Positions 15,229-63,232 of a DNA stretch of 64,000 nt are shown piece by piece. The notes below the pieces were generated by a model that saw only the letters and a program-made list of their open reading frames with translations, was not told where the DNA came from and did no database searches. Source of the stretch: Bacteroidaceae bacterium (GTDB taxonomy: Bacteria; Bacteroidota; Bacteroidia; Bacteroidales; Bacteroidaceae); NCBI GenBank assembly GCA_016291905.1, contig JAEEZS010000081.1, positions 62,001-126,000 on the forward strand, written 5' to 3'. Both the position numbers and the translations under genes were made by a program. The stretch's first letter is position 1, and every line of letters begins with the position of its first letter.

Positions 15229-15393
15229 TGCCTACTTGCCTGTAAGCGACCAGAAAACTTCTATTCTGTTTCATGGGACAAGAAGGTGAACTCTTGTAGT
15301 TTCGCGCCTAATAAAAGACCATTAGAAACTCTTGATTATGCAGGATTAACGGATGCATTAAACAAAGTAAATTGGAAAAGTTGTTTATTGTAA
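15229..15393 (+). pseudogene. Severed C-terminal part of the radical SAM gene
   Basis: Immediately after TAA 15226-15228 and in the same frame, 54 codons encode a peptide with four cysteines (CLLAC near the start, NSC in the middle, SCLL at the end) and the SWDKKVNSCSF pattern used for extra cluster ligands in radical SAM enzymes; it ends at TAA 15391-15393. No start codon is near. A single base change restoring the stop to a sense codon would give a 247-residue protein. Confidence 0.65.
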
Positions 15394-15435
15394 CAGGCCT
15401 CATAGGGAAGAAGGGCTTGTAAGAGAGAGAGTTGT

Positions 15436-15622
15436 GTAGCGGGTATGTCAGTTATGTCAATTACAATTAGGTTTTTGAGGGTAAGTGTTTTCTCCATTCT
15501 CCTTTATATTATTATATAATTAATTAATAATTAATATATTATAATATAAAATAAGGTAGGGAAGCGAGAATGATACCCTTTAAAAAATAACTGACATAAC
15601 TGTAATTGACATGCCCGGCTAC
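15436..15622. repeat. 187-bp imperfect inverted repeat with AT-rich centre
   Basis: The left end reads GTAGCGGGTATGTCAGTTATG; the right end, reverse complemented, reads GTAGCCGGGCATGTCAATTAC. The similarity continues inward on both arms (TTATGTCA, AGGGTA, TTCTC, CCTTAT) to a centre near 15510-15548 that is nearly pure A/T and itself palindromic (ATTAATTAATAATTAAT). The arms are about 70 bases each. It starts 43 bases after the radical SAM remnant and may mark the edge of the accessory island. No ORF lies inside. Confidence 0.7.
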
Positions 15623-15784
15623 GATTCGTTTCATCTAAAAAGCAATCAGACAACGATATACGACATGGAAGAACCAGCTGCTCCGGCTATGTCAAAGCTC
15701 AAAATGAGCACAAAAAGTATCAAAAACCTGCTTTTTCAGGCCTCAAAACACAGCAAAAACCGTTAATTCTGATGTTTTTTTGAT

Positions 15785-15973
15785 ATTCCAAGCAACTATT
15801 CTCACAGCCCAGTGGGCTAATTTCACAGCCCAATGGGCTAATTTGTCAGCCCAAGCATCTAGCAGCACAGCCCAAGGGAATAATTCCGCAACCCAAGCAA
15901 CTATTTATAAACACGGGCGCAGTTTATATAAACAGGGGCCGTGTTTATATAAACAAGGGCGCTGTTTATAAAT
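15785..15973. repeat. 21-bp tandem array, nine degenerate units
   Basis: Units start at 15785, 15806, 15827, 15848, 15869, 15890, 15911, 15932 and 15953, an exact 21-bp period. Units 1-6 share AGCCCA near the start, two of them forming the palindrome AGCCCANTGGGCT; units 7-9 shift to a GGGSGC core flanked by the palindrome GTTTATATAAAC. The array has no ATG-started ORF. It lies in the 900-base gene-free stretch 15394-16290, which otherwise holds only the inverted repeat, the CTACA repeats and the promoter element. Unlike a CRISPR there are no unique spacers. Confidence 0.8.
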
Positions 15974-16039: not shown

Positions 16040-16157
16040 CTACATTACTACACTAAAAGCCCTATTTTGCTGGGACATAAACCATTGAGCGATGTAGATA
16101 GGCAAATTACTACACGATTACTACACGATTACTACATTTTACTACACATGTCTACAC
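16040..16157. repeat. CTACA direct repeats, about 11-bp spacing
   Basis: CTACA cores occur at 16040, 16048, 16110, 16121, 16132, 16142 and 16152. The right-hand group is spaced 11, 11, 10 and 10 bases (ATTACTACACG units), one helical turn, like iterons or a multi-site protein-binding region. No replication gene is nearby. Distance to the promoter element at 16196 is about 40 bases. Confidence 0.55.
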
Positions 16158-16195: not shown

Positions 16196-16267
16196 GCTTT
16201 TTAGATAGGCGGCGCTTCGGGAAATCACAAATAAATTTGCATTTTCTCTCGGTTCGCACTATCTTTG
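16196..16267 (+). promoter_or_regulatory. Promoter-bearing interspersed element, copy 1
   Basis: A 70-base block starting TTTTTAGATAGGC and ending TATCTTTG. It has -33 TTTG (16236-16239), a 20-base spacer and -7 TATCTTTG (16260-16267), an ideal Bacteroidetes promoter. Nearly the same block stands at 55920-55989 before GH31. Here it drives the TolB-phosphatase gene, whose ATG lies 24 bases after the -7 box. Confidence 0.8.
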
Positions 16268-16290
16268 TATCCAGAAAAAAGTTCAATTCT

Positions 16291-28143: not shown

Positions 28144-28278
28144 CTATCCGTTTTTTTCGCTACAAATACTGTTTATCTTTTTTTGTCTTCCTTCTTCTGG
28201 TAGGAGAGCAGCTTGCGGTAGTTGCCCAAAGGGCGGATGAGCTTTTCTGGCATGGCGGTGGTGTTTTTTGAGTTTAAT

Positions 28279-28332
28279 GACTTTAGGGTCTTTAAAGACT
28301 TTAAGGACATTAAGGACCTTAAAGACTTTAAA
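28279..28332. repeat. 9-bp tandem repeat, six units
   Basis: Exact 9-bp units GACTTTAGG, GTCTTTAAA, GACTTTAAG, GACATTAAG, GACCTTAAA, GACTTTAAA. The same unit (AAGGACCTT and similar) forms the KD-repeat inside the V-ATPase I gene at 30692-30775, in the opposite orientation. It lies in the 465-base gene-free gap 28144-28608, which also holds the 21-bp array and the ntp terminator. Confidence 0.75.
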
Positions 28333-28435: not shown

Positions 28436-28519
28436 GGGCCGTCGTACGTGATAACAAGGCCTTCGCACATGGCAGAAAGCCCTTTGTACACGATAAAAGG
28501 GCGGACGTAGCAGCGACAA
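28436..28519. repeat. 21-bp tandem array, four units
   Basis: Units start at 28436, 28457, 28478 and 28499 with a GGGCC/AGGCC/AGCCC/GGGCG head and a GTACGTG / GCACATG / GTACACG core. The minus-strand translation gives repeats of the type CHVRRP, but there is no convincing gene. Same period class as 15785-15973. Confidence 0.65.
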
Positions 28520-29116: not shown

Positions 29117-30991
29117 TCACGCGGCTGTCTGGCCGAAGGGATGATATTCCTCGCCGCCACCGGTGTAGCCGGCATTCTTGAAGAATTCCACGAAGGTGAG
29201 TCGCATGGGATGGACGACGGCACCGAGGATGTTCATGAAGATGTTGAGCGCGTGGCCCACGCAGAATATCAGCGCCGTGACAAGGAAGCCGATAACGGGC
29301 GTCTTAGGGCTCATGCCCACCGCCATGCTGTTGAACACGTTGGCGAGGATGCCGCCGGAGAGGCCGAGGGCAAACAGGCGGACATACGACAGCACGTCGC
29401 CCAGCAGGCCGGTGGCCATGTTGTAGGCATCCCACAGCGCCATGCCGACATTGAGGAAGAGGTTCTTCCCCGGGCTCTGGAAGAAGAGGATGCCGACGGC
29501 TGCCAAGCAGAGCAAGGCGATGACGACGGGGTTGGAGAAGGGCGTCTTGGTAAGCACCGCCACGCCGATGGTGACCAGAAGCAAGAACCACCCGATGGTG
29601 CTGAGCGCATACTTGAAGCCGAGCTGGATGGTGAGGTTGACGGCCTTCAGCACCATGCCGAACAGAATCTGCACCACGCCGATGCAGAGCGAGACGGTGA
29701 ACATGGTGGAGTTGTCAACGAAGAGGAACTCCTTCATCTTCTGCACAAAGGGGATATCGAGGCTGTAGAGGCTGAAGCCGAAGAACGAGCCGGAGAGCAG
29801 TCCGCACAGCATGGTGCTGGCGCCGAACAACACGACAAGCCACTTGGAGAAGTCCGGGTTGATGAGCTTGAAGAGCTTGGTGAAGATGGGCAGCGCCACA
29901 ATCATCAGCAGGCCGTAGCCGATGTCGCCCAGACAGAGGCCGAAGAACAGCATGAAGAAGGGGGCGAAGAAGAGCGTCAGGTCAAGCTCGTTGTACTGCG
30001 GCAGCATGTAGAGCTTCGTCAGGGGCTCGAAGAGACGGGCGAATTTGTTGTTCGAAAGCTGGATGGGTATTTCATCCTCGGGCGTGGGGTCGTCAATCTG
30101 GTAGAACTGCCCCGAGGCGTCGAGGTTGGCGCGGATGTCGTCGATGCTCTTGGCAGGTGCCCAGCCTTGCAACAGGATGAGCTTGTCGGCAGCCACGGGC
30201 TCGCCGGTGAGGCGCACGCGGGCAAAGTCGATGTGGTCGTCAAGTTGGGTGCGGGCCTCCTGCAGCGCGCCAACATTGGCGGCAGCAAAGTCGGCCAGCC
30301 GTTGGTCGAAGACGGCCAGCGAGGCTTCCTCGGCGGCAATCTGCTGCTGGACGGCGCTGAGGGCGACGTTGGGCAGGTGGCATTGCTCGGCATTGATGTC
30401 GGGGAAGTGGCCGGGGGCGGTGACGGTGAGGAAGTAGAGTTTCTGCTTCCCGTGGTTGACGATGATGGTGTTGTACTTCTGCGCCCACTCCTCGTCGTAG
30501 GCTCTGGTGGGGCAGGCAAAGAAGTTCATCTCGTAGCCGGCATTGGCCAGGCGACGGACGCTGGCGGGGTCGAAGTCGCCCCACGGCAGCAGCTGGGCCT
30601 CGTCCTTACGCAGGACGGCGAGGCGCTGCTCGGTGGCAGCCTTCTCGGCCAGCAGGGCGTCGTAGGCGTCGAGCACGGCGGAGGGGTCGGAAAGGTTGCT
30701 AAGGTCGTTAAGGTCCTTAGAGTCCTTAAGGTCTTTAAGGTCGTTAAAGTCCTTAGCGTCTTTAAAGTCCTTGGCGCCTTTACTCTCTTTGGGGAGAAGG
30801 GGCTCAAGGGCAGTGATGGCCAGGTTGCAGCGGCTGAGCAGACGGACGTCGTCGGCCAGGGCGGCATTGGTTATCTGCCCCTGCTCGCGCTGCTGGACGT
30901 GGATGACGCCCATGTCGTGCAGGCGCTGCAGGAACTCCTCGTACTCCTTATAGAACACCAGGAAGGTGAGTTTCTTCATCTTTGTTATCAT
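29117..30991 (-). CDS. ntpI: V-type ATPase subunit I (a-subunit) with KD-repeat insertion
   Basis: 624 residues from the ATG at 30991 (MITKMKKLTFLVF), which overlaps the ntpD stop as ATGA; the frame continues upstream to 31402, but that part is the shadow of ntpD. The N-terminal half is the peripheral arm with a coiled coil; the C-terminal half has seven or so membrane helices including FFGLCLGDIGYGLLM and the GLLGDVLSYVRLFALGL segment with the essential arginine. Residues about 74-103 are a low-complexity run (KDFKDAKDFNDLKDLKD...) encoded by a 9-bp repeat. Confidence 0.92.
   Translation of the reverse strand: MITKMKKLTFLVFYKEYEEFLQRLHDMGVIHVQQREQGQITNAALADDVRLLSRCNLAITALEPLLPKESKGAKDFKDAKDFNDLKDLKDSKDLNDLSNLSDPSAVLDAYDALLAEKAATEQRLAVLRKDEAQLLPWGDFDPASVRRLANAGYEMNFFACPTRAYDEEWAQKYNTIIVNHGKQKLYFLTVTAPGHFPDINAEQCHLPNVALSAVQQQIAAEEASLAVFDQRLADFAAANVGALQEARTQLDDHIDFARVRLTGEPVAADKLILLQGWAPAKSIDDIRANLDASGQFYQIDDPTPEDEIPIQLSNNKFARLFEPLTKLYMLPQYNELDLTLFFAPFFMLFFGLCLGDIGYGLLMIVALPIFTKLFKLINPDFSKWLVVLFGASTMLCGLLSGSFFGFSLYSLDIPFVQKMKEFLFVDNSTMFTVSLCIGVVQILFGMVLKAVNLTIQLGFKYALSTIGWFLLLVTIGVAVLTKTPFSNPVVIALLCLAAVGILFFQSPGKNLFLNVGMALWDAYNMATGLLGDVLSYVRLFALGLSGGILANVFNSMAVGMSPKTPVIGFLVTALIFCVGHALNIFMNILGAVVHPMRLTFVEFFKNAGYTGGGEEYHPFGQTAA
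30692..30775. repeat. 9-bp repeat inside ntpI (KD-repeat)
   Basis: On the minus strand about nine units of the type AAGGACTTT/AAGGACCTT/AACGACCTT encode repeated K-D-(F/L/A/S). Related to the intergenic repeat at 28279-28332. It lies in the coiled-coil arm of subunit I, where added residues could be tolerated. Confidence 0.75.
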
Positions 30992-36378: not shown

Positions 36379-36468
36379 TCAAGCCTTTCGCCGCAACGCC
36401 AAACGTTTCATCGCATCCGACGGAACGTTTCGTCTCACGCAACGAAACGTTCCATTGCACGGCAGAAG
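36379..36468. repeat. 22-bp tandem array, about four units
   Basis: AACGTT cores at 36402, 36424 and 36446 give an exact 22-bp period; a weaker unit precedes at 36380. Units look like GGAACGTTTCGTCTCACGCA, with a palindromic AACGTT centre. The array occupies the middle of the 317-base divergent gap 36225-36541 between ntpE and asparaginase, leaving both promoters outside it. Confidence 0.7.
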
Positions 36469-36541: not shown

Positions 36542-37564
<1,023 letters not shown>

Positions 37565-40579: not shown

Positions 40580-40640
40580 TTCGAAACGTTTGAAAGCCGC
40601 TTTCGAAGCTACTGAATCAAACATTCGAAGCTTTACAAAA
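40580..40640. repeat. 22-bp tandem array, three units
   Basis: TTCGAA palindromes at 40580, 40602 and 40624, an exact 22-bp period; flanks are degenerate. It lies between the lipoprotein stop and its terminator, so it is transcribed as 3' UTR. Confidence 0.65.
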
Positions 40641-49384: not shown

Positions 49385-49584
49385 TTCTGGTACGGTTTTG
49401 CAATAAAACTTGCAAAAATACGAAAGAATTCCGAACCTGCCAACAGAAGAGCCTTTTTTTTATAAAAAAAGAGTGTGAGCCGAAGTTTAAGGCAGAACAC
49501 ACAAATAAGGTTGCCACTCAATCAGAAAAATGAGTCGCGCTGTAAGTAGGCAACTTTTGAAATAACAAATCAAATGTTGTTATT

Positions 49585-49672
49585 GTACCAAACGGGTTGG
49601 GACACGTGTCCCAACGGGTTAGGTAAGGTGTCCCAACGGGTTAGGACACGTGTCCTAACGGGTTTGGTACAA
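49585..49672. repeat. 22-bp tandem array, four units
   Basis: AACGGG at 49591, 49613, 49635 and 49657, exactly 22 bases apart. Between them lies the palindrome GGACACGTGTCC, complete twice and decayed once. It is in the 479-base divergent gap 49385-49863 between tamB and nqrA; the rest of the gap holds only the nqr promoter. Confidence 0.8.
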
Positions 49673-49787
49673 CAAGAAAAGACTGGTTTCGCATTCGAAA
49701 TTCTGCTTTTGCGAAGTTGCCCGCTTTGTTGCGAAGGGAGAAAACTGCTTTCCCGTTATACCTTTTTAAAAAAAGAGCGTGAAAGTC

Positions 49788-61831: not shown

Positions 61832-63232
61832 TTATACTTCTATCGAATACCCAGCACGGTAGTCGTAGTGCATCAGTTTAGTGGCTTCAGGATCATTGGT
61901 AAACTTCTGGACGATGGGATTCCAGATGACAGGACGTCCTAACTCAAGGGCGATATTACCCAAGTTGCAAACGGTGCAGGAGGTATGTCCCGTCTCCACA
62001 GGGCAGTTGGGATCAACGTGCGCCTTCACAGCGTCAATCCAGAAACGACGATGTGCCGACTGAGCCTCATAAGCACCGCTTTCCACGCCAAGGTCCATCT
62101 TCTCGAACTTCGGGTCTGAGGCACGCAGCGAGCCACGACAAACCTTTATCCAACCGTTCTCGCCATAGATTTGCAAACCTTGCTCGCCTCCATTATAGGG
62201 TTCTTCGGTAACGACTGTGCCATTATCATATTCAAAGGTAAGCACATCGTAGCGTCCATATCCGGCAGGACTTATCTTAACAGGGCCTCCATTGCCATCC
62301 TTACCGATAGCCCATTGAGCGATGTCGAACATGTGAGCGCCCCAGTCAGTCATCAGTCCTCCGCCAGTTTCTTTGTACCAACGCCAAGCACCCCAGAGCT
62401 GCTCATCATGCGATTCATCCACGATAGGATCGAGATCGGAGTGATACCACACAGATGTGGGAAGCGGACCCAACCATTTATCCCAGTTCAGCCCTGCCGG
62501 CACATCCATCTTAGGCAGATTGCAGGGAACAGGAGCCGCACTTTTCGGGTTTACGCCATTTCGCCCACAATGGACTTTGATTTTCTCAATTTTGCCCATG
62601 ATACCTTCGCGGCACAGGGTGGCTGCGTGGATGAATTCGCCGCTACTGCGCTGTTGGCTACCCACCTGAAGGATGCGTCCATACTTACGCACGGCCTTGC
62701 AAAGCTGTTTGCCCTCGTAGATGGTGAGCGTCAGAGGTTTCTCCAAATAAATATCCTTTCCAGCCTTACAGGCAGCAATGGCAATGATGGCATGCTGATG
62801 GTCAGGCGTTGCAATTACAACGGCATCGATATCCTTTCGAGCCAGAAGGTCCTGATAATCCTCATAGACATCTACTTTCACCTTCTTTTCACCTTTCTTC
62901 TGGTAGTAGTCCTTAACGCGACGCACGAAGCGGTCACGTTTTATGTCATACACATCACAGCCTGCCAACACGCGCACGTCGTCAAAAGCCATGAATGTGC
63001 TCAACAAATACATGGCCTGCTGCCCAAGACCGATGAAACCAAGGTTCACCTTCCCATTGGCAGACTTCTTCGCAGCAGAAGCTACATCTGGCAAATTAGA
63101 ATAAGCTTCTGACGGATTAGAATAGGCTTCTGCCGGATTAGAGCAAGCTTCTGTTGCACGAATCAAATTAGCTGGCGCAGCTACAGCTGCAGCACCCAAT
63201 GCACTCACTTTCAAAAATTCTCTTCTTTTCAT
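61832..63232 (-). CDS. Gfo/Idh/MocA oxidoreductase, Tat signal, with 7-residue repeat
   Basis: 466 residues. MKRREFLKVSALGAAAVAAP is a twin-arginine signal. Residues about 28-48 are three 7-residue repeats (EACSNPA, EAYSNPS, EAYSNLP) encoded by an exact 21-bp tandem repeat. The Rossmann domain then starts (VNLGFIGLGQQAMYL), with EKPLT (IYLEKPLTLTIYEG) and DWGAHMFDIAQW downstream. It belongs to the GFO/IDH proteins of sugar metabolism; the adjacent divergent uxaC suggests uronate-related sugars. Substrate unknown. Confidence 0.87.
   Translation of the reverse strand: MKRREFLKVSALGAAAVAAPANLIRATEACSNPAEAYSNPSEAYSNLPDVASAAKKSANGKVNLGFIGLGQQAMYLLSTFMAFDDVRVLAGCDVYDIKRDRFVRRVKDYYQKKGEKKVKVDVYEDYQDLLARKDIDAVVIATPDHQHAIIAIAACKAGKDIYLEKPLTLTIYEGKQLCKAVRKYGRILQVGSQQRSSGEFIHAATLCREGIMGKIEKIKVHCGRNGVNPKSAAPVPCNLPKMDVPAGLNWDKWLGPLPTSVWYHSDLDPIVDESHDEQLWGAWRWYKETGGGLMTDWGAHMFDIAQWAIGKDGNGGPVKISPAGYGRYDVLTFEYDNGTVVTEEPYNGGEQGLQIYGENGWIKVCRGSLRASDPKFEKMDLGVESGAYEAQSAHRRFWIDAVKAHVDPNCPVETGHTSCTVCNLGNIALELGRPVIWNPIVQKFTNDPEATKLMHYDYRAGYSIEV
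63087..63153. repeat. 21-bp tandem array inside a coding sequence
   Basis: TCTG at 63087, 63108, 63129 and 63150, exactly 21 bases apart, with AAGCTT or AGGCTT at each junction. It lies just after the Tat signal of the oxidoreductase and keeps frame. Confidence 0.75.

Follow-up and report, generated by a model that had tools for sequence, protein, structure and literature searches.

A sharp tandem period of 21 or 22 bp is common to arrays of differing unit sequence, both in the Bacteroidaceae genome studied here and across the Bacteroidales. Minisatellite-bearing MITEs are known; what appears to be new is a geometric two-turn rule that runs over dispersed minisatellite- and MITE-like repeats. 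We favor, tentatively and at somewhat less than an even chance, the reading that the arrays are mostly selfish repeats, iteron-like lattices in which the step is set by putative binding proteins.

The six arrays of the window

The window is the whole stretch of 64,000 bp that was analyzed (G000:C6:62001-126000, where G000 is this genome, a 3.27-Mb draft in 86 contigs). At one gene the closest named relatives are Bacteroidaceae and Bacteroidales MAGs with 84-85% protein identity, records of this or a very near genome possibly having been excluded. The first-pass annotation had placed six arrays in the window, and all six were recovered: 21 or 22 bp, or its double, is the best period within 8-44 for every one of them, and for each of the six stretches the best self-identity value was reached by 0 of 500 shuffles. 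The features are as follows, with a strand given only for array 6.

15785..15973: array 1, a composite 21-bp array built of two dispersed families that keep to one 21-bp register; 108/168 matches at lag 21
15785-15905: class A units of array 1, each a 13-bp site plus an 8-bp spacer
15906-15970: family B units of array 1 (TTTATATAAAC type)
16106..16147: 10/11-bp repeats (ATTACTACACG type) of the same composite element, after family B
28436..28519: array 2, a degenerate 21-bp array of 4 units; 36/63 matches at lag 21
36379..36468: array 3, a degenerate 22-bp array; 35/68 matches at lag 22
40580..40640: array 4, 3 units of 22 bp with convergent genes on either side; 23/39 matches at lag 22
49580..49675: array 5, a family C element of ~96 bp with inverted termini (TTATTGTACCAAA type) and 22-bp units; 48/66 matches at lag 22
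63087..63153, minus strand: array 6, a coding 21-bp array of seven-residue repeats; 38/46 matches at lag 21

Arrays 2, 3 and 4 are degenerate and lie under the threshold of the genome-wide catalogue, so that the genome-wide counts given below are built on stronger arrays than three of these six. Tandem Repeats Finder at a score of 30 left arrays 2 (28436) and 4 (40580) unlisted and listed array 3 with 67% matches. The arrays had been described as unrelated to anything else, which does not apply to arrays 1, 5 and 6: these are members of dispersed families, matching 28, 11 and 8 places in 1.22 Mb of the genome (self included), and the array 1 stretch has 57 matches across the whole genome with both strands counted. 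For arrays 2, 3 and 4, which match 2, 1 and 1 places in the same 1.22 Mb (self included), dispersal was not found, array 2 having one other place. Array 3 stands upstream of an asparaginase gene (36542-37564, identified by Pfam) and is missing from the shorter orthologous spacer of loci L029-L032, and array 4 is missing from the orthologous spacer of the congener G016. Array 6 is protein-coding and follows the signal peptide encoded by the gene at 61832-63232.

Other repeats stand close to these features. An AT-rich dispersed repeat of ~400 bp (15386-15780), with many copies here and in G003, G009, G016 and G017, immediately precedes array 1, and a further dispersed repeat at 16199-16280, the end of which is promoter-like (TATCTTTG), has matches in most genomes of the genus. 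Two arrays with a 9-bp step and similar TTTAAGGAC-type units (28273-28331 and 30692-30776) lie 2.4 kb apart.

Period, unit families and distribution

In a sample of 1,222,224 bp of this genome, window included, the spectrum of periods is uneven and shows the sharp excess at 21 and 22 bp that the first-pass annotation had named as support; sequence beyond a greedily chosen set of ORFs (at least 100 aa) was counted as noncoding. Noncoding segments with a score of at least 18 number 31 at period 21, 26 at 22, 11 at 42 and 15 at 44, with 1 at 20, 0 at 23 and 1 at 24 among the neighboring periods; the short periods are represented by 7 (20 segments), 8 (7), 10 (4), 11 (13) and 14 (8). Identical 6-mers in noncoding sequence are spaced by 21 bp 1222 times and by 22 bp 627 times, with 139 cases at 20 and 98 at 23, and further peaks are found at the short spacings of 7 (560), 8 (353), 11 (455) and 14 (413). 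Shuffled sequence gave no such arrays: three dinucleotide-preserving shuffles (448 kb) held no segment at periods 10-60 under the same threshold.

The distribution was counted with one best period per array (9-60) and a score of at least 16. Noncoding arrays at 21, 22, 42 or 44 bp make up 57 of 102 in this genome (1.22 Mb), 18 of 22 in five congeners (400 kb), 4 of 4 at L029-L032 (79 kb), 24 of 62 at the 76 more distant loci L033-L108 (1.26 Mb) and 4 of 7 in further genomes of the family and order (311 kb), while arrays at 19, 20 and 23-26 number, in the same sequence of samples, 2, 0, 0, 6 and 1. Small samples from outside the order gave 1 of 4 arrays at these periods in other orders of the class (160 kb) and 0 of 4 in other classes of the phylum (240 kb), where three were at 25; 200 kb of E. 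coli K-12 contained no array of period 9-60. It is possible, rather than probable, that the Bacteroidales harbor an order-wide class of dispersed arrays defined by geometry, in which any two-turn unit is allowed, which is built and kept by diversifying two-turn binders or by one sequence-blind process, and in which new families keep arising.

Units were merged into one family when, in any rotation and on either strand, they differed at no more than 6 positions, an arbitrary cut-off. The genus then has 34 families of period 21 or 22 (23 of 21, 11 of 22) versus 7 of other periods from 16 to 60, and the other Bacteroidales have 26 (6 of 21, 20 of 22) versus 19; since half-units are common to some of the 21-bp families, independent origins are fewer than these family counts. 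Such sharing raises the alternative of common descent, by which the arrays would go back to one or two old superfamilies (step 21 and step 22) with units drifted or shuffled beyond recognition, and the period would be inherited because change takes place by whole units, neither a constraint nor a ruler being required. Class A, family B and further units do have one frame, a 13-bp site and an 8-bp spacer in one register (seen for class A and family B in array 1 and at L308), the same half-units turn up in many different pairings according to an arm list compiled by eye, and an array in a Tannerellaceae MAG (L091:8863-9150, fourteen 21-bp units) is class A-like by eye. Class A arm sites number 126 versus 11.5 expected from base composition, an excess that is partly circular because the arm list was drawn from the arrays themselves, and the spacing between neighboring arms is 21 in 54 cases, 42 in 9, 63 in 2 and elsewhere in 2. 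Against descent from so few ancestors stand the 34 and 26 families that persist even at up to 6 mismatches, and the scarcity of arrays at 20 or 23, although single-base indels within a unit should spread too. Common descent accounts well for the mixing of families in one 21-bp register and may underlie part of the shared period, but it leaves unexplained why 20 and 23 are almost missing once sequences have changed completely, and we regard it as unlikely on balance.

That most units carry a palindrome, as had been proposed, did not survive a count: a dyad test at 0.05, in which same-family copies are unmerged and looped palindromes are missed, was passed by 26 of 108 noncoding 21/22-bp arrays and by 2 of 34 arrays of other periods. 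The palindrome was accordingly rejected as a defining feature, since most arrays fail the test. DNA shape was discarded as well, since for most families neither the A/T runs inside a unit nor the harmonics of its A/T content exceed those of shuffled units (p<0.05 in 0-6 of 34 genus families and in 0-2 of 26 families from other Bacteroidales, depending on the measure).

Turnover between relatives and dispersed elements

Of 19 genomes in the genus, counting the present one, 18 have a region related to that around the nqrA-like gene (49864), and arrays of several families are found upstream of the gene in this genome and in 7 of 17 congeners. Family C occupies this position here, a TTTCATTGCAATGAAA family in G009, G016 and G003 (3.6, 9 and 7 units), family B in G017 at a distance of 0.7 kb, and an unrelated 22-bp unit in G010, with weak 21- and 42-bp arrays in G015 and G005; the 10 other congeners have no array upstream of the gene, one of them with just 59 bp of sequence there. 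Recurrence at one gene (two of the arrays being weak and one 0.7 kb off), together with the mostly noncoding position of the arrays and the palindromes of many units, speaks for a host function, in which the arrays would be binding or hairpin sites for the chromosome or for neighbor genes, acting in nucleoid organization, supercoiling or at RNA ends. We nevertheless consider this very unlikely. Gene orientation is as length predicts, convergent spacers holding 14 arrays (12.0 expected), divergent spacers 15 (14.3) and tandem spacers 25 (27.7), on which ground a terminator or promoter role was rejected; a known RNA family was rejected after an Rfam search of 124 kb that returned two tRNAs only; orthologous spacers turn over in array content; and most families are without an A/T phasing signal. 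The lack of an orientation preference, the incomplete avoidance of coding sequence and the differences between orthologous spacers speak for spread that is blind to the adjacent gene, and such blindness favors the reading as selfish, iteron-like lattices.

Whole-unit allele differences between near relatives, for which the first-pass annotation had proposed a comparison of strains, were borne out in the pair G003/G016 and in the ortholog of array 6. The two congeners are 94.7% identical across 17.9 kb, and their TTTCATTGCAATGAAA-family arrays near the nqrA-like gene differ by 44 bp, that is, by two units. Seven orthologous pairs of family B were compared in G003/G016, at 23 of 29 input loci (the remainder being the same places on the opposite strand): the members of two pairs are exactly one 21-bp unit apart in length, and in a third pair the class A stretch next to family B includes one additional complete unit, which differs in sequence. 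Array 6 is exactly one 21-bp unit longer than its G016 ortholog. The G003/G016 alignment, which covers 37.6 kb, contains 20 indels of at least 6 bp, and 13 of these reach 10 bp or more; among the 13, 3 are whole units of existing arrays, with G016 the longer in all three, and 9 of the other 10 fall within one poorly aligned locus. No indel of 21, 22 or 44 bp occurs outside existing arrays in these 37.6 kb. Differences by whole units demonstrate the gain or loss of units, but not the birth of arrays with a 21- or 22-bp step.

The whole-unit differences and the independence of the step from sequence would also be expected from a copying ruler, by which an enzyme or repair process duplicates steps of 21-22 nt regardless of sequence, leaving the arrays as scars. 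A frame filter on both lengths would moreover predict the excess seen in ORFs, where 12 arrays have period 21 and just 1 has period 22, although many of the 13 ORFs that hold an array look spurious, and for this reason the coding excess at 21 is weak evidence. Set against such a process are the confinement of 21-, 22- and 44-bp indels to existing arrays in the G003/G016 alignment (3 of the 20 indels of at least 6 bp), the fact that birth of an array from unique sequence was never seen, and the want of an account of why one array holds 21 and another 22. We judge this explanation improbable. Two coding arrays of 21 bp, in frame at G000:C46:108891-108942 and 127353-127405, lie in ORFs that by eye resemble a DEAD-box helicase and IspE.

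Several of the families are dispersed elements with sharp borders. Family C is an element of ~96 bp with inverted termini and 22-bp units, represented by 10 copies and one short 29-bp copy in 1.22 Mb and by 21 places in the whole genome; it is present in 6 of 18 congeners and in 0 of 22 genomes of other genera. Being short, multi-copy and bounded by terminal inverted repeats, it is MITE-like, and within 1.22 of the 3.27 Mb its terminus motif is confined to the family C copies and the one short copy. Inspection by eye of the flanks of 10 copies revealed no consistent target duplication. Empty sites were sought by comparing this genome with its relatives, the spacers of which are too diverged, and in the G003/G016 pairs, which gave no clean empty site. 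Across species (8 sequences) the family C unit conserves AAC..GTT and GGACA..TGTCC with variable dyad centers, which indicates that its half-sites flip direction every 11 bp. Each of the 6 copies of family D inspected consists of a fully palindromic 22-mer repeated four times, and family B has tens of copies in congeners.

Rep3 iterons and related elements

The plasmid iterons of Rep3 initiators are a few tandem direct repeats, about two turns apart, with a unit specific to the replicon. The arrays described here resemble them in having tandem sites about two turns apart, and the step is 21 at Bacteroidales Rep3 loci; they differ in their many chromosomal copies and in that this genome holds no Rep3 gene. 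Rep3 initiators (PF01051) were found in 6 of 198 genomes drawn from the order, at 19 loci, and at 7 of these, from 4 of the 6 genomes, a noncoding period-21 array lies upstream of the initiator gene. Three of the seven loci are near-identical pieces of one contig, and the arrays comprise five unrelated units in 2.5 to 4.5 copies, three of the five being weak; the score threshold was 14, lower than elsewhere, and ORF positions were checked at 15 of the 19 loci. The Rep3 locus L321 has additional arrays of 26 and 43. Eleven of the other 12 loci, all without a period-21 array, come from one genome (G174, a member of the order that is 1.2 Mb in size and gives 11 Rep3 matches), and three of those have 32-bp tandem arrays beside them (L328, L336, L338). 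The 22-bp step, the commonest outside the genus, was not seen at the 19 Rep3 loci.

By analogy, these iterons suggest that unrelated units can be held to a 21-bp step by protein geometry in the Bacteroidales, and the same step over unrelated units again runs counter to common descent. Between a fixed copying step and face-aligned protein binding, the Rep3 comparison leans towards protein geometry. The partial text of a study of plasmid iterons reports that iteron length and spacing differ between plasmids and that Rep binding is affected by a half-turn insertion between iterons (PMC10797057). A search of this genome for PF01051 gave no match, and no protein binding the dispersed arrays was found.

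In the iteron-like lattices that we favor, sites would repeat every two helical turns (21 or 22 bp), fully palindromic families presenting one dyad per turn, and a protein spanning two turns could fill every unit on one face of the DNA, touching its neighbor. Unit sequences would diverge between families because the binders differ and change fast, while the step would be preserved because protein and DNA geometry fix its length. Many lattices would form part of small MITE-like elements, inserted intergenically with little heed to adjacent genes, and arrays would gain or lose whole units in situ, so that the register survives. We infer binding of the dispersed arrays by proteins, on which their spread or maintenance would depend. 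If protein geometry sets the step, the arrays would point to numerous DNA-binding proteins and small mobile elements, as yet unexplored, in common gut bacteria, and these could be found by period alone, without sequence similarity; if copying sets it, there would be a new mutational process of measured length. Under either mechanism the period is a cheap signature, testable on whole genomes.

Among other known systems, REP/BIME elements with RAYT transposases are dispersed intergenic palindromic repeats in mosaic clusters. The present arrays are likewise dispersed, intergenic and mosaic, but their step is fixed and their sequences are many. A RAYT/REP origin was rejected, the sole Y1 transposase gene having other flanking palindromes. 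This gene (PF01797; L157, G000:C12:51761-52217) is flanked by CCCAGGGC..GCCCTGGG palindromes, a REP/RAYT-like arrangement separate from the 21/22-bp arrays. CRISPR arrays were also excluded, as the units are contiguous and alike over their full length in most arrays.

The first-pass annotation knew of no named element with this rule. Near relatives do exist in the minisatellite MITEs of Porphyromonas and in plasmid iterons; a literature search, with subscription journals mostly outside it, returned no description of an order-wide two-turn rule over unrelated units. The BrickBuilt MITE of Porphyromonas gingivalis is, in the portion of the source available, one family with a 23-nt unit and IS5-like termini, and 22-, 23- and 41-nt repeats are mentioned there for strain W83 (PMC4596501). 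From the same portion, the likeness lies in a dispersed intergenic minisatellite of the Bacteroidales with a short unit, variable copy number and inverted ends, and the difference in one 23-nt family there as opposed to many families of 21 or 22 here (PMC4596501). In 1.22 Mb, 0 noncoding segments have the period of 23 of the BrickBuilt unit, and two exact variants of its termini (GAGACCTTTGCA type) returned 0 matches. PINSR of Prevotella intermedia, also an amplified intergenic repeat restricted to one Bacteroidales clade, is 188 bp long and lacks terminal inverted repeats, and a 21/22-bp step is not described for it in the excerpted text (PMC4755523).

A separate element family in this genome has complex inverted ends built of the 11-bp site AACACTTACCT, each with an outer site, an inverted site at +49 bp and, at +16 bp, two to four tandem sites, the other end being mirrored. 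Copies lie at L027 (G000:C76:166467-168133), G000:C46:59928-60385, C81:43009-43330 and C81:138420-138712. Most are ~250-460 bp long, and one 1.67-kb copy carries a VapE-like gene (PF05272) alone; the family is present in 6 of 19 genomes of the genus, with no transposase within the copies read. At G000:C46:231932-233614, a left end of this family is followed by three or more small ORFs, by eye toxin-antitoxin-type cargo, and then by a complete short copy of the element.
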